A stretch of DNA of 64,000 nt. Source: Lenzites betulinus (lineage: Eukaryota; Basidiomycota; Agaricomycetes; Polyporales; Polyporaceae). This document shows positions 35,153 to 60,400 of the stretch, piece by piece. The stretch spans positions 101,376 to 165,375 of the forward strand of contig JABYQU010000067.1 of assembly GCA_022264855.1 (NCBI GenBank), read 5' to 3'. The translations under genes and the position numbers were made by a program. How positions within the stretch are numbered: the first letter of the stretch is position 1; each line of letters begins with the position of its first letter. A model generated the notes under the pieces. It saw only the letters and a list, made by a program, of their open reading frames with translations. It did no database searches and was not told where the DNA came from.

Positions 35153-35309
35153 GTGCTGTTAGGCCCAAAAGGGAGGAACGACCTGTGAGCCTAACGAGTG
35201 CTTACTAAGAGTGCGGCCGAATGAGGAAGAGAGCGAATCGGGCGCTTGAGCGCCAGTCGCCTTCGCTCTCTTCCACCACGTCTCCCACTCGGTCGACGTT
35301 GTTTTTTGA
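35153..35309 (+). repeat. Ngaro A1 repeat
   Basis: 157 bp starting GTGCTGTTAGGCCC, identical base for base to A2 at 51,523-51,679. It forms the left end of the element, 43 bp before the gag ATG. Confidence 0.85.
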
Positions 35310-40110: not shown

Positions 40111-41366
40111 TGTCGGATGAATATCCGGGAATCGATTGATTAATAAAATGGTGAGGGGTTTAATGTGATGGATGATTCCGGATTCTGCCGCAAAGCTTGT
40201 GGGGTTTCTTCTTTTTCCAACAGAGGCCTTGCCGAGTTCGTGACTAAGCCGGGCTGGCTGTGATCCTGTATGACAGTCCGCGGTGTGTGGTATGGTGTGA
40301 TATAGAAACTATAACGGTGTCTGTGTGTCGTAGGTGTGTGCGAGGGTGTCCTGATTCTGCGAGTGGTCGTGGCCGTGAAATATCTTGCGTGTGTCTTCTG
40401 TGTTCTGGGTCGTCTGAGTCTCTCTGTCTCCTGAGGTTAGTGGTTGTCGTAAGGCTCCGGTGAACCCCAACCAATCTAACAAATCCGTGTTCTGTCGTGC
40501 AATGTCATATGCTAGTAGTTGTCGTAAGATTCACGGCGAATCCCAACTAATCTAGCTCAATCTGTGGGCTACTAAGGGTAATGACTGTGTGTAGTTGGCT
40601 GATGTGACTGCTAAGCTGAGTGTGCTACTGGTGCTACTGCTTATGCCACTGCAAGCTGGCTTGCATGGCAGGCAAGGGGAAATAGCTGAGAAAATGTGTG
40701 TTATTCCCTCCCTGCCTTGCTCACCCCGGTATTTATACCTGAGGACGAGGGGCGTGGGAGCTGATTGGTAATACATATGTAAGCAAAATCTACGCTGACG
40801 AATCCATGTCCAGCACTTTCTCCATCCTTCTACCTCTTTCCTACTCCTTCCAGAATATTCCAGAATATTCCACACTCTTCCAGGCACTTCCATAGATCCT
40901 TCCAGACAGTTCTTGGTATGTTGAGAAGCTTCCGGCGCCTTCTCTCGGAATGTTCCTTGTCTTTCCCATACTTTCTAGAATGTTCCGCCGTGTTCTGGCT
41001 CATTCTCTCTGGTTCCAGTCTGTTCTTGTGGTTACTCCTTTATTCCTGCTTGTTCTGTGTTGATGCTAGCGTTTTCTAGATGGTTCTGGGATGTTCTCTG
41101 ACTACTCCAGGTGTTTCCGGGGGTTTCTGGAATGTTCCGTACTGTTCTAGTGGGTTCCGTACTGTTCTAGTGGGTTCCGTACTGTTCCGCTAGGTTCCGT
41201 ACTATTCTGCGAGGTTCCGTACTGTTCTACTATTCTCTGGTGGTTGCTAGAACCTTCTGGTGCATGCTTGGGATGATGGTATGTCTGTGTTCATGACCTT
41301 TGGTTCACACACTGTCTGTACCGCTAGCCGTCAGGCTCAAGTACCAAACTGGTTTGGTGCGTGACA
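40111..41366 (-). repeat. 3' LTR of the 11 kb element
   Basis: 1,256 bp bounded by TGTCGG and GTGACA on the plus strand, so it runs TGTCAC...CCGACA in the element's sense. It contains the U3 TTC array (40,818-41,235), a TATA box (GGTATAAATA, 40,730-40,738), and in the R/U5 part two diverged copies of a 41 bp unit beginning TTGTCGTAAG (about 40,440-40,550). Translated stretches are identical to the other LTR. Confidence 0.92.
40818..41235 (-). promoter_or_regulatory. U3 array of 10 bp-phased TTC triplets / heat-shock elements
   Basis: About 38 TTC triplets on the plus strand (GAA on the coding strand) fall at nearly exact 10 bp steps through 418 bp, ending 80 bp upstream of the TATA box. Perfect alternating pentamers occur, e.g. 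TTCcaGAAtaTTCcaGAAtaTTC in phase at 40,848-40,870 and TTC-GAA-TTC at 40,973 and 41,125. Positions 41,131-41,230 form five 20 bp tandem units (GTTCCGTACTGTTCTAGTGG). Triplets repeated every 10 bp match the step-type heat-shock element of yeast Hsf1. Heat control is inferred. Confidence 0.75.
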
Positions 41367-41562
41367 TCCGCCCCACAGTCATACGGCCGTCCTCGGTCGT
41401 CCCAACCTATTTCCGACTTCAACTGACTTGTTCTGAGTCCTCTCCATGTCTCCGGGGTATGCGGGGTACAGAGATCGTGGCATAAATACAATCGCGCGTA
41501 TCGACAACATGTGGGGCACGGGTACTAGCAAGCTTGGGTACGTGCGTAGCTACTTCCGGTGA
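41367..41562. other. 3' end of the LTR element interior, polypurine side
   Basis: Short non-coding stretch between the accessory frame and the 3' LTR. On the minus strand TGTGGGGCGGA next to the LTR is the likely polypurine tract. Confidence 0.4.
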
Positions 41563-42276
41563 CTATGGGTGTCTTGAGCAGGCGGTAATAGAGCAAAGGC
41601 GGGGAACGTACGGCACTCTGACCCACAGAGTCGGCATTGTTGCTGGTATCCGGGGGTACCAGCGGGCTTGCAATGCGGAGCTCAGCGGCGGGAGCACGTC
41701 GGGGATGGGCGTCGTACGTGTGCTGTTCGGGTGGAGGTGGCCAGTGATGCTAAGAAGCGCGGCGACAATGGGTGCGACGTAACCAAGAAGTCCACCTAGC
41801 TTGCGGTACCGGACCGCAAGAAGAACGTGGCTGTCGGGGACGTTTCGGGGGGTGATGGCGAGAACCACAAAGTCTGTCTGATACTCGACGATACGCTCGA
41901 CATGCGCAACGAAGCCGATAGCTTGCTCGGCGGGGAACAATTTGAACAGGCGGATGTGAGAGTTGATGTATACCATGTGATCTTCCTCTCCTCCATCGTA
42001 AACGAGCATCGTGTAGTTCTCCATGGCGAAGACATTGTATGCGGGGAGCTCGGCAGCGGGGAAGCGCGGGGAGGACATGCTGGGTGTGCGGAGAGATGAA
42101 CGGGGAGAGTGATGCGTCGGGGACTGGGGTGATGCGCTGGGGGGGCCTTGCGGTATGCATGTGTTTTGAGCGAGGCCTTCCCAGTACTGTCTATTCGGTA
42201 ATCGGACGGATAACATCAGATCTCGGGGATCGGCAGTCAATCTCGCAGAATTCCGATATTCTCTGGTGGGAAGCAT
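41563..42276 (-). CDS. Accessory frame of the LTR element, 237 codons
   Basis: No known family. From an internal Met (42,077) it reads MSSPRFPAAELPAYNVFAME, then a compact alternating region (NYTMLVYDGGEEDHMVYINS, IRLFKLFPAEQAIGFVAHVE, QTDFVVLAITPRNVPDSHVL) and a hydrophobic segment GLLGYVAPIVAALLSITG. The composition looks like a folded domain followed by a membrane-type helix. It lies on the same strand as Gag, nearest the 3' LTR, where other retroelements keep extra genes. A TATAAATA-like box on the minus strand near 42,744-42,751 could serve it. Function unknown. Confidence 0.45.
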   Translation of the reverse strand: MLPTREYRNSARLTADPRDLMLSVRLPNRQYWEGLAQNTCIPQGPPSASPQSPTHHSPRSSLRTPSMSSPRFPAAELPAYNVFAMENYTMLVYDGGEEDHMVYINSHIRLFKLFPAEQAIGFVAHVERIVEYQTDFVVLAITPRNVPDSHVLLAVRYRKLGGLLGYVAPIVAALLSITGHLHPNSTRTTPIPDVLPPLSSALQARWYPRIPATMPTLWVRVPYVPRLCSITACSRHP

Positions 42277-43230
42277 GTTTCTTGTACGATCTGATCTGTC
42301 TTCAGGCGCCCCGCAGTCATGGCTTCTTTCCTCGGCGGTGTGAACTGCGGTCTCCGGCTGCTCCTTATCTCTCGGCGGTGCATGCTATTAATTCCGACGA
42401 CTTCTATCCACGTGGCATCCTCGTGTCTGGCCTCGTGCTGATCGGGGTGGATGACCGTGTGGGAATTCCTTGCTGTAACTGACGCTTGGCTTGTTCAAAG
42501 TCTTGCTGGCTGTCTGGCGGTGAATTCCCATCCTCCTTTCTCCTTCCTCGAGGGTCGTTTCCTCCGCTACGTGGACCTCGTCCTTAGCTTTGTCCTGGGG
42601 CAGCTGTTCTGTGGTCCAGTCGGTCTCGTGCGTAGTTCTCCGGGTTGTGCATTCATTCAACGTAGGTGTGAGTATTAATGTTCATCTTTGCAGATGGCTT
42701 GTACAATGCCAATCCCGTCTCGAACGGCTGACTGGGGCGGTGATATTTATACCATTTCTTTGGTGCGTCGTGTGTTCTCTTTTGGCTACCTCAACGTCTG
42801 ACGTGTCCTACATAGTTCCTCTTCTTCATTCAACTCTACGTGGCACCACTATCCATAGGCAGAGGACCGGTGTCCGCGTATGTGTTGTGATCCTTTTGCT
42901 CCTTTTGCTGTTCTCTCGCTTTTGTGGTGCATGTGTCCATGCTATCATTTCTATATCCTTGTTCGCTGATTGGGTATACAGCTTTCGTTCTAGAGTGCTT
43001 GATTGGTAGGTAGCCAGGCAGGCAGTGGTACTCGCTGTATTTCTATAGAGACAAGACATGTGTGTGACAGAAAAGCGGTAGACTGTGCGTGTGTCCAGGT
43101 TGAGTGTGATTATGTTTCCATTTCTCCGTTTCATATGCAATACATGGCAGGGTACGGTTCCGGCCGCCCCGCAGTCATGCTGCTATCCTATTGGTGGTGC
43201 TACATTGCCCAGCGGCTATGTCCCTAATTC
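42277..43230. other. LTR element interior, no clear frame
   Basis: Pyrimidine-rich on the plus strand with a minus-strand TATA-like TATAAATA near 42,744. A GTGTGT-rich patch lies near 43,060-43,110. No domain seen. Confidence 0.35.
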
Positions 43231-43461
43231 TCATCTCCGTCGTGCTCGCCGTGATGGTGCAATCCCAAAGGTTGGACGGCGTGCTTCCCGGTCCTGTGTG
43301 TGCTTCATCGTCTTTGCGTGCTTGATCATTCTCTGAATGACTTTCTTGCGGGTACTCGTCTCCTTCATCTTCTTCTTCCCAAACCAGGCGCCTCGCCTAC
43401 GCCTCTGTTTCTCTTCCTTCTCAAGCTCCCGTAAAGTATTGTCGAGTACTTTGTTCTTCAT
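43231..43461 (-). CDS. Small highly basic frame of the LTR element
   Basis: 76 codons, starting MKNKVLDNTLRELEKEEKQR and rich in Lys/Arg throughout (RRRRGAW, FGKKKMKE, RKKVIQRMIKHAKTMKH). It begins about 120 bp downstream of a minus-strand TATATAA box (43,581-43,590) that is itself preceded by a short TTC-phased array. It could be a nucleic-acid-binding peptide. Short length and lack of homologues known to me keep confidence low. Confidence 0.35.
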   Translation of the reverse strand: MKNKVLDNTLRELEKEEKQRRRRGAWFGKKKMKETSTRKKVIQRMIKHAKTMKHTQDREARRPTFGIAPSRRARRR

Positions 43462-43580
43462 ATAGAGCAGTCAACTGTGATAGATGGGTACTAAAAGGGT
43501 GTATGTGGGGTACAAGTGATGGTTGGGAGTCCTGATACTGTGGGGGGGGTGTCCTTGTGCTGTCCTGGGTCAGGCGGGGC

Positions 43581-43708
43581 TTTTATATAATTTTCTGGTA
43601 ATTTTCTACAATTATCTGGCATTTTATAGACATTTCTAGATGTTTCTGGATATTTCTCGGGGCTTCTCGGGGTGTCTCGGGCTCTTAGGGAATTTATCTA
43701 GAATTTTC
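43581..43708 (-). promoter_or_regulatory. Internal TATA box with TTC-phased array
   Basis: TTTTATATAA at 43,581-43,590 on the plus strand reads as a TATA box for minus transcription. Upstream of it TTC occurs at 43,593, 43,604, 43,634, 43,644, 43,654, 43,664 and 43,706, mostly at 10 bp steps as in the LTR U3. It may drive the 76-codon basic frame and the frames beyond. Confidence 0.5.
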
Positions 43709-45210
43709 TTGGACCGTCGCGGGGTGTGGAGCCGTGTGCGTGATGGTGCGCGGTCGTTCGATGGCGTTCTTTGGTCGGGATATCCAAATCGAGCCGGGCG
43801 GGGCGTATGGCAGGCTGGCGCTGGCGCGGGGCGTCGGGAGTTGCTTGTACGGGCCGTTAAGCGCCGGTCTGCGTGTCTGCGTACATAATCTTGCTGTTTT
43901 CGGCCGTGCGTGGCTGTCGCGTGGGTTCCGTGTGGCCTGTAAGCGCCATAGTGACGTCCAAATCGAGCTGGTGGGCCTAATCGGGAATCTTGCATAAGCT
44001 TTGCCATTCTGGGAATTCGCGTGCGCGTCGCGTGCGCGTCGCGTGGGCCGGAAGCGCTCGGGTTCGGTGGCCGGTCTCCGGGGCACGTGCTTGTGCTGCG
44101 GTAGGCTGCGGTAAGTACATCTGCGCGCTTGTCACTTTTCTTGCTTTCTCCTCGCCCTGCTTGCGTGTCGTCCTCCTCGTCCTCCCTCGTGCTTGCTGGT
44201 GGTGCTCGACCGCCGGACCTCGTGTCCGAGCGCGTCTCTCATACGTCCTTCACTGTGTTTGGTCTCGTTTTGGTCGTGCTTCCTCCTCTCGTCCCTCTTG
44301 TTCTTGCTCGTCGGCTACTTTTCTTCGTTCTTGCTTCCTCGGACACGGCTGCCTGCGGCTTGAAGCTCGAACGCGACCCTTTCCGAGTAGGATGGCGTGT
44401 GGGCGGCGTGGGATCGAGAGTTGCGCGGGTTAGGGTGGATTGTGGGCAGGGCGACGGGGTATGCGGGCATGCGGCCGCGGTGGCGGGGTATCAGGTATGT
44501 ACTAACCGTCATTTCTTGTGTGTGTGGGCGTGTGCGGGCGGCGCGAGGCGCTTCAAGAGGCCCGTATGCGTTCTGGGACGAGCGCGAGCGGCTGGGCAAC
44601 GTTCAAGAAGCCTACGCGCACGTCCTTCATGCACGGCCCGCGTCCGTCTCGTACGCCTTGTGCGTGAGCGAGCTCGGGCGCGGTGCTAGGGAGTGTGCGC
44701 ATGTGCGTACGTCTGTGTGCTAACATTTTGTCTTCTGCAGATTTGTTTCCGAGTCTTCATAGCCGTTAGGCTCGTTTCTTCCAGACCTCGCTCTTCTCTT
44801 TTCGTTTTCCGGCCTTCCCATCCCTTGCTCCTCTGTCTGGTCATTCCATGCTCGTTTCTTATAAGGGCATCAGGTACGTGCTCTGCCGATTTTGCTAACT
44901 CTACGCGTCCGCGCACATCGTATGCCGGGCGGTGGAGCTCGGGCGTGGATCGGGCGTGGGTCACTTGGCCCACGCTTGCCCGTTCGGGCTCTGTCGTCCG
45001 TGCTGCCTGTGGCGTTCATCAACAATTCAAGAAGCATGGCTATAGTAGTACAGGGGTAGGTAGGGCCTGCTACGTAACGGTACAATCGGCCATCCAGGCC
45101 GTGCTACGAAACGAATCAAAGGGACTCAGGCGGGTGGGGCATCAAGCCGACGGGGTGGTGATGACATGAGAACTCGGGCCTGCGCTCCGGGCGCGGTGCT
45201 ATACAACTAA
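43709..45210. other. LTR element interior, GC-rich, unresolved
   Basis: Several overlapping frames on both strands, none with a motif or a credible exon chain. A repeated GTGCGCGTCGC patch lies near 44,020-44,045, and a T/C-rich stretch at 44,130-44,330. I see no polymerase signature here. Confidence 0.4.
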
Positions 45211-46332
45211 TCAGAACGTGTCGGTTTCCATCGCAGAATCGTGATTCCAAAGCCCAAGAGTCGACGCGGGCTCGCCATGGCCTAGCCCTCCGGTGGCCGC
45301 ACGATGAAGCGAACGTGTTACAGTACGAACGAAACGGCGCTCGGGCCTGCTCCAGAGGTGCACGGGAACGTTGAGCAAGCCGGTGAGGTTCGAGAGCTCC
45401 ATTTCGTGGAGTGCGAGGTCCGGGCGATGGGGAGTACGGCGAGGCGATGGACGGCGGTGTGACTGGCGAGCGGCACGGCGGCGCTTGACTGACGCGGGCG
45501 CGGACAGCGGGAGTGCGAGCTGGGTCCGTCGTGTCGGTCGCGGGCGGAGATTGTACGGGGGCGGGCTGGAGAGGTCGATCGAGGACGTGTCGGAGTCGTC
45601 GTGTAAGAATAGCGGGTCCGAGCCGAGAGGGGATACTACAGGTGATGGACTGGACGGTGTGGACGGCGGGCTCGAGTGAGGGCTGAGAGGTTGGAGTTCG
45701 TCGGTTTCTTCGTCATACGGGTATCCAAGGTCTTCGATATTGGGTTCTTCAGCGTCTGTGAGGTGCTCGATGCACGGGTGCTCGAATGGGATAGGCGTTG
45801 GCGGGCGCGACGTCTCCTCCGCTTGCGCTGCGACTTGGTTAAGAACGGCTGCGAGCTGCCCTGCGTAGTCGGGCTCCGGGTGATGCAAGAAGTTGAGGCC
45901 GGGTTGGAGGGCGGGCAAGGGAGCGGGGTGGTTGATGGGTGCGGAAGGGGGAAGCCGGATGATGGAGGGGGTGGTGGCAACGGAGGCCACTTGGGCAATA
46001 GCCGGGGAGGGGGCAGGGGGAGGGCCATCAGAATTGGACTCGAAAGAGTTGATGAAAGGGGTAGACTCCTCGAAGAGGAGGACACAGGTGCCTGATCGGG
46101 TCCGGCCCGCTTGGGTAAATCTGACATTACGAAGGAGGAAGAATTCGACATAGACCGTGGGATCCCAAGGGGCCCGGATGTGAGGGACGGAAAAGGCAAG
46201 GTCACAGAGAATAATCGGAGTAGGAACCTGAGGCAGGTGACTGTCACGCGCTGCGTCACAGTGAAAATCATGAATATAACCAAAACGGTCAGGGTGACCT
46301 GGGTGAGGGATAGGGATGCAGACCGGGGGCAT
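45211..46332 (-). CDS. Accessory frame of the LTR element, 373 codons
   Basis: No known family. The first 90 residues look folded (PDRFGYIHDFHCDAARDSHL, PTPIILCDLAFSVPHIRAPW, DPTVYVEFFLLRNVRFTQ, GTCVLLFEE), followed by a long Pro/Ser-rich disordered part with an acidic patch and the motif PPPYNLRPRPTRR; the tail is basic (KRRRAARQSHRRPSPRR). YNLRPR-like motifs also occur in retroelement polyproteins, but no protease, RT, RNase H or integrase site is present. The frame starts about 80 bp after a minus-strand TATA box (46,411-46,420), so it may have its own transcript. It lies 532 bp downstream of gag. Confidence 0.55.
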   Translation of the reverse strand: MPPVCIPIPHPGHPDRFGYIHDFHCDAARDSHLPQVPTPIILCDLAFSVPHIRAPWDPTVYVEFFLLRNVRFTQAGRTRSGTCVLLFEESTPFINSFESNSDGPPPAPSPAIAQVASVATTPSIIRLPPSAPINHPAPLPALQPGLNFLHHPEPDYAGQLAAVLNQVAAQAEETSRPPTPIPFEHPCIEHLTDAEEPNIEDLGYPYDEETDELQPLSPHSSPPSTPSSPSPVVSPLGSDPLFLHDDSDTSSIDLSSPPPYNLRPRPTRRTQLALPLSAPASVKRRRAARQSHRRPSPRRTPHRPDLALHEMELSNLTGLLNVPVHLWSRPERRFVRTVTRSLHRAATGGLGHGEPASTLGLWNHDSAMETDTF

Positions 46333-46410
46333 GGAGTGATGGCTGAGGTAATGATTTCCGTGGTGAATAACTGGTGGGTGGTGATGGGCTATAGGCTTTC
46401 AGCAGGGGGT

Positions 46411-46776
46411 TTTTATATTAATTTTCTGTTCCCTTTGTGGAATGACCTGGTGATTTCTTCGCATTTTCTGGCCACTTCTGCCCTGCTCCAGATGTGTAGA
46501 ATATTTCTGGACCTCCTCTGGATGATTCTGGGATGCTCTGGGATGAATCAAGACTTGTCTAGAATATTCTGAGCCATAATTCATTATGTCAGAGGGATGT
46601 GAAGTTCGGATTTTTCCCCATCAGGTATAGTCTCCCAAGGCTTTCCTGCTTATCCAAATATTCTGACTACGTTATTGATGCGTGCCCTCGGTATGCAGAG
46701 GCTTCTGGGAATTTTCGGCGCTTTTCTGGAATTTTCCGGTGCCTTCTACTGGACTTCTTGTCTGGCTGTCCTTCTC
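46411..46776 (-). promoter_or_regulatory. Internal TATA box with two TTC-rich arrays
   Basis: TTTTATATTA at 46,411-46,420 is a minus-strand TATA box. Upstream, TTC or CTC triplets fall near 46,456, 46,466, 46,476, 46,486, 46,505, 46,516, 46,526 and 46,536, with GAAtaTTC at 46,562. A second set lies at 46,703, 46,714, 46,724, 46,734, 46,744 and 46,755 and includes a perfect TTCtgGAAttTTC. Confidence 0.5.
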
Positions 46777-46863
46777 CACATTATATTCGTTTCTGGCCTG
46801 TTTAAATCCCTCCAAAATATTCCCTTCAGTGGTATTGCCCAAGGTAACAACTTGTAAATTCAA

Positions 46864-49785
46864 TCAGGTACTATCTGGACCTCTGATATTATTTTCGGGG
46901 TTTCTAGAGGTGTTCAAAAGCGGAAAATGTTGCAAATCCTGCTGCCATGGAGTGGGTGTCCCTTCAAGTTTTCTCTTCTGTCCTTCCCTGCTAAGGCTTT
47001 CCCAGTGACTCTTCCGTTTATTCTTCTGACCAGACACTGTTGACTGAGGTGTAAAGAGCTCAATAGCCTGTGCTGCAAATCGATCTTTCGTAGGGTTGGA
47101 TTTGATATAGTTACACTTGTGGGTGCTGGTGGTGGCCTGCTGTGCTGATGCATGTAACTGTAAATAAGATGTCCGGGGTTTGCGATTGACACGTTGCTTG
47201 CGCTTTTGAAGCCGTTGAAGTTGTTGTCTGATCTTTCTGGTTTCCTGTAGCTCTGCTAATCTCTTCGCATTTGTGCTTATTCTCCAGGCGCGTGCAATCA
47301 AGTCCATAACATGACTTTGTTCAGCGGCTATTGGCTTCCTCGCAGTGTCCTCTGTCTGGTGACTTCCTGGTGGCTCATTCTCTTCTCCACTAACAGGCCC
47401 ATTATCTTCTGTCTCCAAGTTCTCCTTTGGGTTGTCTTCTTCGGCTAAGTGTTCTTCATCCTGATTGCTCTCTCTCTCCTTGGGTGTTGATCCAGGTGGC
47501 TTCGTACTTTGAGTTCCAATAATTGCAGTGTAGACATCCGGGCGTAGGTCTGTTGTTGACTGTGGCGTGACAAGCATCTCTGTCTTTGGATAATTCTGGG
47601 TGGCAGGGAATGTCAGATAGGTTCCATCGTCTCTTTCCTCTATCCCAATCTTGTGCGCTTGTTGCCATGGGCGACCAAGTAATCCGTCAAATGGTGGGCT
47701 CTCTGCTACATAGGCACTGATGGGTGTTGCTACATGTCCTAGCTTGAGTGGTATGTCCTCGACCAATCCTAATAGACGTCCAGTTCCTCCATTTGCGTCA
47801 TTCATCGTGATTGACTCGCCAGTGTTGATTGGCCTGCGGACAATATTCTTGCAGACTTTCTCACTGATAATATTGAGCTGGGACCCAGTATCAACAATAA
47901 ATGTGACAGGCTTGAGGTTACACTCCATTTGTAGGCGGATAAGTGATCCCGTGCGTGATGTGACTAAGTGCAATGTTGGTGGAAGTGATGCAGTGGATAC
48001 GGTGTCAACTTTCTTGAGTTTCAGCATGTCGATAAGGTTGCTTGCAATTTCTCGTGAGCTCCCGGCTATCTCTCTGACCGGTAAGGTGATGGGAAGGTCT
48101 AGAAGCTTCTCGGCAATTCTGGCGGGGTCTACGGTCCGGGCTACATCAGAGATCCGAGCTGTGCTGCGAGTCCTCTCAGTCATATCCACATCTATGTCCA
48201 TCCTTGTCATGATTGGCTGGGCTTCTACTGAGGCTTTACGTTGGACAGGCATTGGCAGAATTCCTGGCTCTCTCTGTCTTGCCTTCCGGGTGGGTACTTC
48301 AACTCCGTCAAAGGTCTGTTTCTGATAGGCAGAAGCATTGCGCTGGGTGTTATCCACTGGGTAGATCATAATGTCTGCTTTCGGCTCGCTGGAGGCTTCT
48401 GTTGGTCCACCATAGGCTATGTAGTTGACTTCTGGTAGGATACGCTCAATTGCCTGACAGACGGTCTCTCCCTCATTCCATCGAATAACCATGCCAGTCT
48501 TGTCTGTGATCCGTCCTCGATAATCTCGCAGGACTCGTCCCTTTGAGAGGTACTTCTGCAGTTCTGGACAGCTGTTCATGATATGCCCGGATTGGCCACA
48601 CCCGTAGCAGTTTGGGCGAGGTACTGGCAAGGTTGCTGGACTCGGTTGATGCTGTTCCATACGTGGCAGCAGTTTCTGTGTGACATTCTGGTTGAAGCGG
48701 GGTGGGGGCCTAAGGACTGGTTGACAGAAGCATTGTTGGGTCGTAGGGTCAATGCGGCATGCTTTCAGATATGCAACAGCATACTGTGGGTCGTCCAATT
48801 GGAGTGAACGGAGCTGCTCTACCAGCGTGTCTAGTTCTTTGTCTTCTGTCTTGCGTTCAGAGGGTGCGAGAGTCTGGTGCTGCTCTTGTCGTAGCTTCTC
48901 CTGCTGGTCTTGTGCATACTTGCGTATTTGTTTCTTCCGTGTTTCTTGCTCGTCCTCTTCATCTGATAGGTCATCATCTTCTTCGTCATCATCTTCATCC
49001 CATTGTCTTGGTCTTGGTGAGCTCCTCTTCTGCAGTCGCAAATCTTCATCGTCATCTTCCAAGTATCTCTCCTCTGATTGGTCCTTGTATTTCCGGCGTG
49101 AGCCAAGACGTTCCATGTCAAATCTGTCCACACTCAGAATAGACTTTGCTGCTCTGTCCATAGCCTGGGGACTAAAGGGTACAGACATGTCATGGGCGGG
49201 ATCCTCAAGTAGAATGCGCGGCTCTAGTTGTCTCCGGAATGGCTTTGGCAATCCAATCCACATGTAGTATGCGTAGTCGGCTTCAGAGATCTTCTGCTTT
49301 CCCTGTAACCATCCGGCAATCCGAACATAGTTACGGAGGTATTGTCTCCAATCTCTCAACTCCTTGACTGGCTCCTGCTTGGACTCGCTGACAAATCTCT
49401 GGAGATCCTTGATGCGGAAGCGCTTTGACTCCAAGTCGGCATTCCAGAATACTCTGATGTCTTCTTTCAACTGTGTCCAATTGCCTTGCTGATAAGATGG
49501 GAAGCCCTCGATGGTCTCCCTGACTACTCGTCCACAGTAGTCTGTAACAGTCTCACATTTCTCCTGGTTGCTAAGGTGGTATGAGAGCGCCAGTCTTTCG
49601 TACTTGCGAAGGAATGGTTCCACATCAGATGCTTCTCCACGGAACTGCTTTGGGGCTCGGCGAGATCCTTCTACTGGCATGTCGAGTACGGAGTAAGAGG
49701 TTGCAATGCTGAAGTCGGAACCAATGGTTGGGGTTGGTGATCGATGGGCCCTGTCGTATGGTTGGCTATGGTGTTGTGTTGTCAT
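46864..49785 (-). CDS. Gag-protease polyprotein of the LTR element
   Basis: 973 residues in one frame, starting 55 bp inside the primer-binding site. Residues 40-200 match Ty3/Gypsy Gag (PKQFRGEASDVEPFLRKYER, IEGFPSYQ, FWNADLESKRFRIKDLQRF). A strongly acidic stretch follows, then the CCHC knuckle CYGCGQSGHIMNSC near residue 393. Around residue 630 the aspartic protease active site VTFIVDTGSQLNIIS appears, with a plausible flap and LLGRPWQQAHKIGI ending the domain. The last 200 residues are charged and end at a normal stop. An RT would be expected next; none follows in any frame, so this is not a simple frameshift of pol. Confidence 0.85.
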   Translation of the reverse strand: MTTQHHSQPYDRAHRSPTPTIGSDFSIATSYSVLDMPVEGSRRAPKQFRGEASDVEPFLRKYERLALSYHLSNQEKCETVTDYCGRVVRETIEGFPSYQQGNWTQLKEDIRVFWNADLESKRFRIKDLQRFVSESKQEPVKELRDWRQYLRNYVRIAGWLQGKQKISEADYAYYMWIGLPKPFRRQLEPRILLEDPAHDMSVPFSPQAMDRAAKSILSVDRFDMERLGSRRKYKDQSEERYLEDDDEDLRLQKRSSPRPRQWDEDDDEEDDDLSDEEDEQETRKKQIRKYAQDQQEKLRQEQHQTLAPSERKTEDKELDTLVEQLRSLQLDDPQYAVAYLKACRIDPTTQQCFCQPVLRPPPRFNQNVTQKLLPRMEQHQPSPATLPVPRPNCYGCGQSGHIMNSCPELQKYLSKGRVLRDYRGRITDKTGMVIRWNEGETVCQAIERILPEVNYIAYGGPTEASSEPKADIMIYPVDNTQRNASAYQKQTFDGVEVPTRKARQREPGILPMPVQRKASVEAQPIMTRMDIDVDMTERTRSTARISDVARTVDPARIAEKLLDLPITLPVREIAGSSREIASNLIDMLKLKKVDTVSTASLPPTLHLVTSRTGSLIRLQMECNLKPVTFIVDTGSQLNIISEKVCKNIVRRPINTGESITMNDANGGTGRLLGLVEDIPLKLGHVATPISAYVAESPPFDGLLGRPWQQAHKIGIEERDDGTYLTFPATQNYPKTEMLVTPQSTTDLRPDVYTAIIGTQSTKPPGSTPKERESNQDEEHLAEEDNPKENLETEDNGPVSGEENEPPGSHQTEDTARKPIAAEQSHVMDLIARAWRISTNAKRLAELQETRKIRQQLQRLQKRKQRVNRKPRTSYLQLHASAQQATTSTHKCNYIKSNPTKDRFAAQAIELFTPQSTVSGQKNKRKSHWESLSREGQKRKLEGTPTPWQQDLQHFPLLNTSRNPENNIRGPDST

Positions 49786-49839
49786 ACTGATGATGTGCGG
49801 TTGTCTAGGATAGTCTTTAGATGGTGGGAATCAATCACT

Positions 49840-49858
49840 CCCCTCGCGGTGGGCTCCA
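49840..49858 (-). other. Primer-binding site of the 11 kb element
   Basis: TGGAGCCCACCGCGAGGGG, four bases from the 5' LTR. It would pair with the 3' end of a tRNA ending GGGCTCCA. The same 19 bases occur at 52,463-52,481 in the second LTR element. Confidence 0.6.
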
Positions 49859-49862
49859 GTGA

Positions 49863-51118
49863 TGTCGGATGAATATCCGGGAATCGATTGATTAATAAAA
49901 TGGTGAGGGGTTTAATGTGATGGATGATTCCGGATTCTGCCGCAAAGCTTGTGGGGTTTCTTCTTTTTCCAACAGAGGCCTTGCCGAGTTCGTGACTAAG
50001 CCGGGCTGGCTGTGATCCTGTATGACAGTCCGCGGTGTGTGGTATGGTGTGATATAGAAACTATAACGGTGTCTGTGTGTCGTAGGTGTGTGCGAGGGTG
50101 TCCTGATTCTGCGAGTGGTCGTGGCCGTGAAATATCTTGCGTGTGTCTTCTGTGTTCTGGGTCGTCTGAGTCTCTCTGTCTCCTGAGGTTAGTGGTTGTC
50201 GTAAGGCTCCGGTGAACCCCAACCAATCTAACAAATCCGTGTTCTGTCGTGCAATGTCATATGCTAGTAGTTGTCGTAAGATTCACGGCGAATCCCAACT
50301 AATCTAGCTCAATCTGTGGGCTACTAAGGGTAATGACTGTGTGTAGTTGGCTGATGTGACTGCTAAGCTGAGTGTGCTACTGGTGCTACTGCTTATGCCA
50401 CTGCAAGCTGGCTTGCATGGCAGGCAAGGGGAAATAGCTGAGAAAATGTGTGTTATTCCCTCCCTGCCTTGCTCACCCCGGTATTTATACCTGAGGACGA
50501 GGGGCGTGGGAGCTGATTGGTAATACATATGTAAGCAAAATCTACGCTGACGAATCCATGTCCAGCACTTTCTCCATCCTTCTACCTCTTTCCTACTCCT
50601 TCCAGAATATTCCAGAATATTCCACACTCTTCCAGGCACTTCCATAGATCCTTCCAGACAGTTCTTGGTATGTTGAGAAGCTTCCGGCGCCTTCTCTCGG
50701 AATGTTCCTTGTCTTTCCCATACTTTCTAGAATGTTCCGCCGTGTTCTGGCTCATTCTCTCTGGTTCCAGTCTGTTCTTGTGGTTACTCCTTTATTCCTG
50801 CTTGTTCTGTGTTGATGCTAGCGTTTTCTAGATGGTTCTGGGATGTTCTCTGACTACTCCAGGTGTTTCCGGGGGTTTCTGGAATGTTCCGTACTGTTCT
50901 AGTGGGTTCCGTACTGTTCTAGTGGGTTCCGTACTGTTCCGCTAGGTTCCGTACTATTCTGCGAGGTTCCGTACTGTTCTACTATTCTCTGGTGGTTGCT
51001 AGAACCTTCTGGTGCATGCTTGGGATGATGGTATGTCTGTGTTCATGACCTTTGGTTCACACACTGTCTGTACCGCTAGCCGTCAGGCTCAAGTACCAAA
51101 CTGGTTTGGTGCGTGACA
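49863..51118 (-). repeat. 5' LTR of the 11 kb element
   Basis: 1,256 bp, offset 9,752 bp from the other copy and apparently identical. Holds the TTC array at 50,570-50,987 and the TATA box at 50,482-50,490; this is the copy that should drive gag transcription towards lower coordinates. Confidence 0.92.
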
Positions 51119-51522: not shown

Positions 51523-51679
51523 GTGCTGTTAGGCCCAAAAGGGAGGAACGACCTGTGAGCCTAACGAGTGCTTACTAAGAGTGCGGCCGAATGAGGAAGA
51601 GAGCGAATCGGGCGCTTGAGCGCCAGTCGCCTTCGCTCTCTTCCACCACGTCTCCCACTCGGTCGACGTTGTTTTTTGA
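51523..51679 (+). repeat. Ngaro A2 repeat
   Basis: 157 bp identical to A1 at 35,153-35,309. It is preceded by a 230 bp spacer that holds the dyad CACTTAG...CTAAGTG (about 51,416-51,476). Confidence 0.85.
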
Positions 51680-56940: not shown

Positions 56941-57107
56941 ACCAAAGACCGTACGTTTAGGCGCCCCCTTGGCGAGGCGCGGGGTTACTACTGGGCCCTC
57001 TCGGCACCTCGGCACATGTCCTAAAGCGGTAATTCGTGTGTAATATGTCGCGCGCACCGCGTAAACGCCTCCCGGACGTATTATTCAGCTTCGCGTAGTG
57101 TATACAG

Positions 57108-57335
57108 AGCGCCCGGGCGCCCCTTCCTCCTCCCGGGCACCTCGGGGATGCCCTTGGAGAGCGCCCGGCCACCTACCAGCCTCCCGGGCACCTCGGGGAT
57201 GTCCTGGGAGAGCGCCCGGCCACCTACCAGCCTCCGGGCACCTCGGGGATGTCCTGGGAGAGCGCCCGGCCACCTACCAGCCTCTCGGGCACCTCGGGGA
57301 TGATCTACCATGGGGTTTATACCCTTGGAGAGCGC
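57108..57335. repeat. About four tandem copies of a 50-51 bp unit
   Basis: Units begin GAGCGCCCGG at about 57,108, 57,159, 57,210 and 57,260, with a partial copy near 57,330. Each contains CACCTCGGGGATG. Spacing is 50-51 bp and small differences separate the copies. Confidence 0.75.
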
Positions 57336-57478: not shown

Positions 57479-60400
57479 CTAGCGGCGACGCTTAGCAGAC
57501 CGTGAGGACGACGTGCCATCGTTTCCTCGTCCACGCTTGATGCTACGACTTGTTGAGTATGAGCAATAATACTATACGGCCGCGCCACTCACCCGGAGAC
57601 TCGACCACTAGCTCCCATCTGAGTGACAACCCAGCAAACATCGGTCACCGCCTGATGCCAGTCTTGAAGCGTCGCCGGACTGATCACGTCCTTCCACCAT
57701 GCCAGAGTGAGAAGTACCAGCATGATTCCGTTCTTACCAGGCCTGACAAGTTCCCCCCACTCGCCTTGAGCGCCATGAAGTGGAAGAGGACGGCCGTCTT
57801 CGCCGAATGTGCGCCACCCTGGCTGGAGAGATCTCCACCATGCCCACCAGGACTTGGCGAAGTTGACGTCCTGAGGCATGGATGGGAGGCGGTTGAGCTT
57901 GCGCCCCCACTTCATCCACTCGCTGACCTCCTTTGGCCGGTTTGCAGTGGGTAGCCCTTGAGTCTTTAAAGATGTTAGTCAACGTCCAATGCGAGAGATT
58001 GGTGGCAAGGAAGCTCACCGGAGTCTCCCACTTGTAAGTCCCTTCCAAGACAACCCAGCCTTCCAGCGCCCCTTGGTATTCGTCACCATACCCACGCGCT
58101 GCAAGGTGTTCATACACCTCGCTGACCCATACAGGCCACTCCACTCTCGGGGGGCGAGAAATTGCGCTTGTTGTTGGCGCAATTGTTGCCGTTGTGAGCG
58201 CGCTAGAGGATACGATTGCAGATGCGCTTTCCTGCGTGGTCGCCACTGCCTCTGCTGGCATTGGGGGCGTAGTGCAAGCTGCCGGAGTGGGCGTGGCCGC
58301 TGTGAGCAACGTCGGAGTTGTCGCGGCTGCTGGAGCCGTCGCGGCTCCGGTAGCTGTTGTCGAGCCTGAGGTGGCGGCGGCGGTGGTCGTCGCGCCCGCG
58401 GCGGTCGTGCCCGCGGCGGTCGTGGTCGCGCCCGCGGCGGTCGTGCCGCGGCGGCGGTCGTCGTGCCCGCGTCGGTCGTGGTCGCGCCCGCGGCGGTCGT
58501 GGTCGCGCCCGCGGCGGTCGTGGTCGCGCCCGCGGCGGTCGTGGTCGTGCCCGCGGCCGTGGTCGTGCCCGCGGCGGTCGTGGTCGTGCCCGCGGCGGTC
58601 GTGGTCGTGCCCGCGCGGTCGTGGTCGTGCCCGCGGCGCTCATCGTGCCCGCGTCGGTCGTCGTGCCCGCGTCGGTCGTCGTGCCCGCGGCGGTCGTGCC
58701 CGCGGCGTCGGTCGTCGTGCCCGCGGCGGCGGTCGTCGCGCCCGCGGCGGCGGTCGTCGTGCCCGCGGTGGTGGCCGTCGTGCCCGCGGTGGTGGCCGTC
58801 GCGCCCGCGGTGGTTGTTGTGGTTGCTGATGTTGTCCCACCGTTGGACGTTGCGGCCTTACGCAGGCGCGAAGATTGGCGAGTGGCGACTGCAGATTTTG
58901 CAGCAGGCGGGGTGGGTTTTTTCGATGGCTTCATCAGAAACCCGACCTCCTCGCGGATACGGCGCATATTGGCGGTGTGCTCTTTCCTGTTGATATAGGC
59001 GACCCGCTCAAACGTGGGCAAATCCCCGGCCTCGACGAGCCACCGGCGCCGGGCAGCTTCAGTCATAGCATCGAGCTCGACTGCCATCACTGGGCCTACG
59101 CCAAGCTCCTCCATAGTAGGTATGTCGTCTTCGTCCAGGCCAAGCCAGTAGTAGTCGTCGTCCTCGTCATCGTTCTCGTTGTCCTCGTCCTCGTCGTCCG
59201 CGCCAAGGTCGTCGTCTTCCTCGAGTTCGTCCTCATCGTCATCACCGAGTAGCTCATCCACCTCGTCGTCATTGTCCCGAGAGTCACTCTCCCATTCTTC
59301 CGCCGAAGACTCGTCTGAGTCACGCGCACGGGCTTTCCCTTTTCCCTGTCTCTTCTTCCCAGACTGCCCTGCCTTGCCTTTACGTCTCTGAGCCACCGAC
59401 GCACCGGCAGGTACAGTCGATAATTGTGTCGTAGCTACCGGAGGGGTGGGTGTTGTACTCGGAGGAGCTGCGAGGTTGAGGCCAAGGGAGGAGAGTGTCG
59501 TAGGAGTTGAGAGCGTGGATGGTGTCGATGAGGTTTGGAGAGTAGCTTGCCGTTGTGCATATTCTATAACATCAATCAGCCATGCAGGACGTTAGGTAAC
59601 AAGGGGATACATACCAGGGGTTGCCATGAGGAATCGTGTGAAGGACTGCATGACGTCGTCGCTGAAGCGTTGACCCTCGTATTGGTACCAATGAAGACGA
59701 CTGGCCCCGCAGTCTTACCGGCGTTGATACTGAGGATGAAGGTTAGTGTAATTCATGTCTGCTGCGACTGAGTGTAACTTACATCTTCAAGCAAAATTCC
59801 TTCTGGTCCGTGATGTTGGGACACCGGCAATGAGAGTGAAGTACATTCCCGTGTAGGCCCGGAGCATCTCAAGCAGAGGTTGCACGACGACTGCAAGCTG
59901 ATCGCGAGCCCTATACAAGACTGTAAGTTGCGCGTCATCTAGAGGTAGCACGGCACTCACGCTATTTGCTGCTCCGCATCTGAGGGACCGTCAGGAGGGA
60001 TGTACTCCGCCATCCGTTCCAAGTCCTCATTGTGACGACGGTCGCATTCGTCCCGGAGCTCTTTCTTGTAGTCATCCGATTCTGCGCGTAACAACTCGCG
60101 CGCAATAGCTGCGCGGAAGCTAAGCCCCTCAGAGTCCCTGAGCCCTGCTGCCGGCCATCGCTCGTCGAAGACTTCCGATACTTCAGTCGCCTTCAGAGTC
60201 ATATAGAGCTGCCAAGGCGGGAGTTTGCGCGGTGGAGCAATGGTGGCATGATGGCGCAAGGAGTCGAGGACGCCTGCCCACGGGTTTTGTTCCTTACGCG
60301 AGCGGGCATTCCTGCGGTAGCGCATGTGGTTCTTAATTTGCTAAAGAGAATGCATCATGCACCAATCACAATAGGCATTATGCAGCGAACGTACCTGCTG

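Follow-up and report, generated by a model that had tools for sequence, protein, structure and literature searches.

A dense, mostly step-type ladder of putative heat-shock half-sites in the LTRs of a Lenzites betulinus retrotransposon family

ONSEN, a copia element of Arabidopsis, is ATCOPIA78. Heat-shock elements (HSEs) in its LTR are recognised by HSFA2, and the element is activated under heat (PMC8376061). Among fungi, heat shock, copper and oxidative stress are reported to activate the MAGGY element of Magnaporthe (Ikeda 2001, cited in PMC3978060), and neither 'heat shock element' nor 'HSE' occurs in the text of PMC3978060. A search of the open-licence literature brought up Magnaporthe work on heat-activated fungal LTR elements and, as the close match for HSEs in fungal LTRs, a Cryptococcus paper with its preprint; none of the reports listed deals with Lenzites betulinus LTRs. 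In Cryptococcus, the LTR retrotransposons TCN12 and TCN3 are described as carrying putative HSEs and as mobilised at 37 C (PMC12810828). The same paper, from 2026, states that heat-shock activation of transposable elements via host machinery 'remains undescribed in fungi'. Caenorhabditis Helitrons carry HSE clusters, and several genomes are reported to have a 1-kb window with more than 50 of them (PMC6927752).

We analysed a 64,000-nucleotide stretch of L. betulinus contig JABYQU010000067.1 (the window), in which an LTR holds 38 TTC triplets, mostly 10 bp apart. This ladder is best read as a very dense, mostly step-type HSF enhancer among HSE-bearing LTRs. As in ONSEN, HSEs lie inside the LTR and upstream of a TATA box, so the comparison drawn by the initial annotation holds. 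ONSEN is a plant copia element for which induction was shown, whereas the present element is fungal, has an ORF for gag-aspartyl-protease, bears a long ladder of mostly step-type sites, and is known here from sequence; by analogy, it may work like ONSEN. It shares with TCN12 and TCN3 a basidiomycete LTR with putative HSEs, but one and two such sites, respectively, are reported for those elements against 38 half-sites in the Lenzites LTR. MAGGY is likewise a fungal LTR element; its stress activation is on record through the work cited above, whereas for the Lenzites element we infer it. The Caenorhabditis clusters are similarly transposon-borne, repetitive and dense, but Helitrons are DNA transposons and the role reported for them concerns host genes rather than the element's own promoter. 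Human satellite III, with its GGAAT unit, is satellite DNA, in contrast to the LTR promoter described here. Its head-to-tail repeats have been crystallised with HSF domains (PMC8379338). With this LTR, fungal heat-shock activation of transposable elements via host machinery becomes directly testable: two insertions have identical LTR pairs, several copies bear the array, and sister families that lack a TTC ladder provide a natural control. The array is also a natural dense step-type substrate for the study of HSF cooperativity.

The LTR element spans window positions 40111-51118. Its reading direction is leftward, because the internal 988-aa ORF with a gag-type aspartyl protease domain is on the minus strand. 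Tentatively, GCGC may be its 4-bp target duplication.

40111..41366, minus strand: 3' LTR, TG...CA, 1256 bp, identical to the other LTR
49863..51118, minus strand: 5' LTR, TG...CA, identical partner at offset 9752; would drive the element's own transcript leftward
46864..49830, minus strand: gag-protease ORF, 988 aa; gag-asp_proteas at 31.6 bits, cut-off 28.2

The best protein relative of the gag-protease ORF is from L. betulinus (99% identity over 73% of the query), and further relatives are named as other Trametes, among them T. versicolor, T. maxima and T. cubensis, and as Ganoderma; a viral_contigs scan with this ORF confirmed no relative. Searching the three minus frames of 41367-46863, with stops as X, gave no Pfam match at E up to 0.1. 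Among minus-strand ORFs of the element (five, then 20 including 16 new) the gag-protease alone passed a Pfam cut-off, the three DUF matches of the 20-ORF set being weak (E 0.013-0.095), and none of the 150 RVT_1 genome matches scored, from 168 candidates, lies inside the element. Reverse transcriptase and integrase, which an autonomous Ty3-type element would have in its internal region, were not recognised in the minus-strand scans; as for Copia-type pol proteins and their order, the gag-protease is the sole protein recognised. Because no reverse transcriptase or integrase was recognised internally, the element may depend on partners, and it is possibly a large non-autonomous element, which we do not assign to a named family. 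The 5.5-kb segment that separates the gag-protease ORF from the 3' LTR (41367-46863), without recognisable reverse transcriptase or integrase on the minus strand, sits in an element whose LTRs are identical. Outside the LTRs, an identical 157 bp direct repeat occurs at 35153-35309 and 51523-51679, 16.4 kb apart, and the window also has tandem repeats of 21 bp (22 copies, 58377-58814) and 51 bp (3.9 copies, 57106-57302).

The ladder and its surroundings are as follows.

40818..41235, minus strand: HSE ladder, 3' LTR copy: 38 half-sites, GAA in the sense direction and TTC on plus, mostly 10 bp apart
50570..50987, minus strand: HSE ladder of the 5' LTR (LTRs identical, offset 9752), with tandem-repeat rows there
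40818..41112, minus strand: block A of the ladder, 25 TTC, spacers mostly unrepeated
41113..41235, minus strand: block B of the ladder, 13 TTC, with a 20-bp tandem repeat at 41125-41228
40848..40870, no strand: perfect HSE of five alternating units, TTCCAGAATATTCCAGAATATTC, by sequence
40973..40985, no strand: perfect HSE, TTCTAGAATGTTC, by sequence
41125..41137, no strand: perfect HSE, TTCTGGAATGTTC, by sequence
40764..40768, minus strand: CCAAT box between ladder and TATA, a sequence match
40730..40737, minus strand: TATA box, TATAAATA, present in all copies listed
43634..43666, minus strand: isolated four-unit step site inside the element, by sequence
46714..46746, minus strand: isolated internal step site of four units, shared with the C87 copy

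The initial annotation had noted about 38 TTC in 418 bp, nearly all exactly 10 bp apart. We counted 38, with 30 of the 37 successive intervals exactly 10 bp, and the run at 41115-41225 is indeed unbroken (12 TTC without a miss). Its chance expectation of 6-7 TTC was too low, since the stretch is T-rich and shuffles average 17.8. The 30 TTC pairs at +10 bp nevertheless far exceed shuffled sequence, the check that it had proposed: 2000 dinucleotide shuffles of the ladder gave a mean of 0.72 pairs and a maximum of 4. GTT, the next most 10-periodic trinucleotide in the ladder, makes 11 pairs from 24 copies, and when a 418-bp frame was slid over the window at least 6 such TTC pairs were reached at the two LTRs only. 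Two corrections apply. The half-sites are GAA on the sense (minus) strand, and 40818-41235 belongs to the 3' LTR, so that the copy driving the element's own RNA would be the one at 50570-50987.

Step triples (at least three nGAAn in one orientation, 10 bp apart) number 23, in agreement with the step-type arrangement first proposed. The perfect HSEs announced for several blocks were located in three, one of them of five units: perfect TTCnnGAAnnTTC starts at 40848 and 40858 (overlapping), 40973 and 41125. The ladder is nonetheless mostly step-type, with GAA at +5 after only 4 of the 38 TTC. In each LTR the leftward order is ladder, CCAAT (40768-40764) and TATAAATA (40737-40730), placing the HSEs upstream of the TATA box; the LTR promoter setting, in an identical 1256-bp LTR pair, holds up, and TATAAATA on the minus strand confirms that the ladder ends 80 bp upstream of TATA. 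The sites were also said to share one face of the helix, which is true within each run and fails overall: the ladder has phase slips of 2, 3, 1 and 1 bp and a mean spacing of 10.1 bp, and its best-fitting period is ~10.2 bp (vector strength 0.80), 10.5 bp fitting poorly (0.28).

In HSF-DNA work, TTC and the downstream GAA often have pyrimidine-purine (YR) between them, and the base before GAA is contacted by a conserved Asn (PMC8379338). A pyrimidine follows every ladder TTC (38/38), against 54% of the 1054 other TTC in the window, and YR follows 27/38 against 25% of the same 1054 (P = 2.6e-9, sites treated as independent). After the ladder's other C the frequencies are 45/73 for Y and 18/73 for YR (Fisher versus TTC, 1e-6 and 4e-6). 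Block A alone gives Y at 25/25 (P 1.8e-7) and YR at 15/25 (P 1.9e-4). Part of this flank bias may be LTR composition, because the LTR's 15 TTC outside the ladder lean likewise (11 Y, 8 YR; ladder versus these, p 0.005 for Y and p 0.33 for YR). The ladder has the HSF-type flank, a purine before GAA and often YR, with YR not above the LTR's other TTC, and its TTCYR fits HSF1/HSF2 recognition.

We consider it likely that the stretch serves an LTR retrotransposon family as its U3 enhancer, an HSF half-site array through which stress-activated host HSF would induce element RNA. The half-sites would be RGAA on the sense strand (mostly YRGAA) each 10 bp, mainly step-type with the three perfect HSE blocks. 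Heat or other proteotoxic stress, perhaps copper, would activate host HSF, whose trimers would bind the ladder cooperatively upstream of CCAAT and TATA, with room for perhaps up to ~12, and element RNA would be induced; from the 3' LTR, stress-induced RNA would run leftward past 40111 as well. We infer HSF binding, induction and a benefit to the element, and the fungus's stress response probably switches the element on via the ladder. TTCn7TTC is reported in 55 of 104 Hsf1 peaks of Candida (PMC4894976). HSF1 of Trametes hirsuta is copper-responsive and binds to promoters of laccase genes; the bound laccase sites described are CTTGAA or gap-type rather than step-type, which counts against the step reading (PMC12772356).

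Five other insertions align with the window LTR at 83-98% identity. Counting the window first, the ladders of the six insertions hold 38, 36, 35, 34, 34 and 27 TTC; same-motif pairs at +10/+20 in the six, window included, number 56, 52, 50, 42, 39 and 23, with shuffle maxima of 7-8. Ladder length changes among insertions are of 10, 20, 30 and 40 bp, the lone exception being 2 bp at an existing phase break (L006); a 3-bp insertion in L005 is outside the ladder. The identical LTR pairs are those of the window (1256 bp) and of L003/L004 (1237 bp). With CpG columns excluded and dependent pairs pooled, a base within TTC is substituted at about half the rate of the same base outside TTC (C, 44/623 versus 129/1022; T, 42/1246 versus 95/1521). 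The substitution and column counts were made without L003, since only a 20-bp gap separates its array from the window's; the other LTR of the L003 insertion is L004. Four window-versus-copy constraint tests gave p 0.33, 0.20, 0.004 (L007) and 0.34, one being significant. With sites defined by any single row there is no difference between TTC and outside (20/128 versus 41/234), and with two or three rows, definitions that favour conserved sites, a difference appears (11/108 versus 50/254; 10/105 versus 51/257). We read the constraint on ladder TTC as weak to moderate.

A more distant relative, L009 (C80:64500-68500), aligns at 76% and only to about the first third of the ladder. Past the alignable part, 9 pairs at +10/+20 remain where 1000 shuffles reach 4 at most, some of them with GAA on the other strand, and over its whole U3 a purine precedes GAA in 14/14 and a pyrimidine follows TTC in 17/19. 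Another relative, L010, has 3 pairs only (shuffle maximum 3) and a purine before GAA in 5/8. Genome-wide, the four-unit TTC ladder has 144 matches versus 35 for the reversed control. Most rows listed are in the element's family and 22 are outside both the family and the C80:66-kb relative (L009); these matches listed (n=22) show no general excess, and one of them lies upstream of an HSP70 match, at a distance of ~390 bp. For the three-unit TTCYR ladder the count is 109 against 8 for the control, overlapping family matches being counted many times.

The regularity could instead be that of a minisatellite, made by slippage of a 10- or 20-bp LTR unit and without regulatory role. Block B fits this: its spacer identity at lag 20 is 0.70, whole units are alike head to tail, and the HSE regularity at 41125-41228, about a quarter of the stretch, is partly due to the 20-bp tandem duplication there. 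The array length changes of 10-40 bp, the weak constraint on TTC and another 20-bp tandem repeat in sister LTRs point the same way. Block A does not have units alike head to tail. Its spacers (positions 5-9) share few letters (identity 0.291 over all pairs; 26/65 letters for neighbours; 10/50 at lag 20), and lag identities of 0.357 (lag 10) and 0.295 (lag 20) stand against 0.255 expected, while TTC and the next pyrimidine persist. TTC is also by far the most 10-periodic trinucleotide, and L009 retains motif and spacing without alignable sequence. We therefore judge slippage alone an unlikely account of the ladder and prefer the HSF enhancer.

HSE chains also occur beside the host's own heat-shock genes. 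We scanned 14 HSP loci (HSP70, 7; HSP90, 2; HSP20, 5), found by family matches, 'upstream' meaning upstream of the first family match rather than of a mapped start codon, and therefore partly coding at C93 (from profile position 104), C29 (66), C12 (42), C16 (14) and C50 (12). Nine HSE chains were found, in 6 of the 14 upstreams (16.8 kb), and none in 16.8 kb of control flank, taken as the final 1200 bp on the opposite side of each locus and partly coding; the remaining 8 upstreams scanned have no HSE chain. The window predicts 1.37 chains (P = 1.4e-5), an expectation resting on 5 window chains outside the LTRs, 3 of them inside the element. A first scan covered 13 genes and allowed gaps up to 3 units; the second, reported here, covered 14, allowed gaps up to 2 and included the control flank, its settings being chosen after the first result was seen. 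Spacing is step-type in 4 of the 9 chains; the C1 HSP70 match has a four-unit ladder upstream and the C43 HSP70 match two three-unit ladders. Together with the flanking letters and the other copies, these upstreams lend partial support to the HSF interpretation of the initial annotation.

The genome has five Pfam matches to HSF domains, one fragment matching PDB entries of HSF1, HSF2 and HSF4, which favours the HSF reading. Another reading is that the sites serve a different HSF-domain factor (Skn7- or Sfl1-like), possibly a repressor silencing the element. One of the five matches has the helix FVRQLNKYDFHKV, which we take to be Skn7-like. The HSP gene upstreams of the same genome hold the same site types, however, and TTCYR fits HSF1/HSF2 recognition, so we give this reading little credence beside host HSF. 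A rotational signal of 10-bp period that places nucleosomes or bends the DNA, suggested by the regular spacing near the helical repeat, is very improbable, since TTC stands alone among trinucleotides (30 pairs; next GTT, 11), the best period is ~10.2 with phase slips where 10.5 fits poorly, and the pyrimidine after every TTC is left unexplained. A TTCTG pentamer repeat at C43:965348-965387 (G000) is ~1.3 kb from the HSF-domain match at C43:966725.

Sister LTRs (L011-L016, on contigs C80, C19, C57 and C98) have in common a U5 end of ~150 bp, at 83-87%, and a TATTTATA box. Upstream of TATTTATA, at the position where the window family has its HSE ladder, is a tandem repeat of the kind TGCGAGGCTACGTTGACCTG, of 20 bp in L014 and L015 and 21 bp in L016.

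L014:1525-1691: TGCGAGGCTACGTTGACCTG-type ladder of a sister LTR, also in L011-L013, L015 and L016

L011-L013 have a 20-bp signal like that of L014/L015, and in L014 and L016, the sister LTRs tested, a 10-bp recurrence is seen for GGC and GCT; none of the sister loci L011-L016 has a TTC ladder. In the LTR periodicity table, which is restricted to loci matching TATTTATA and thus lacks L010 and L019, L016 has the 21-bp signal and L017 is without a 10-bp signal (z 0.5). LTRs of this group thus habitually carry ladders of 10 or 20 bp, non-HSE ones in the sister LTRs, so that the argument for HSF rests on the letters and not on the period.

The letters differ by lineage, being HSF half-sites in the window family and the C80:66-kb relative and GGCTAYG-type in the sister families. 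A speculative extension, which we hold to be possible though doubtful, is that this LTR superfamily evolves 'ladder enhancers', in which one half-site at 10/20 bp is placed upstream of a common TATA/U5 module and the factor is exchanged between lineages. The HSF version would be a steep step-type stress switch, step-type being favoured over the perfect form because TTC fills nearly every slot and GAA at +5 follows only 4/38.

The pair L083/L084 on C51 (~309448-309985 and partner), absent among DNA matches of the window LTR, consists of identical 538-bp repeats ~5.8 kb apart and is probably an LTR pair. Upstream of a TATA box, TATATAAGG, these repeats carry four HSE units, TTCCAGAACCCTATGGAAGTCTCTAGAAT, of which three are spaced at 10 bp, and this too favours the HSF reading. 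On C52, two matches have a core as in the TTCCAGAACCCTATGGAAGTCTCTAGAAT of this pair.
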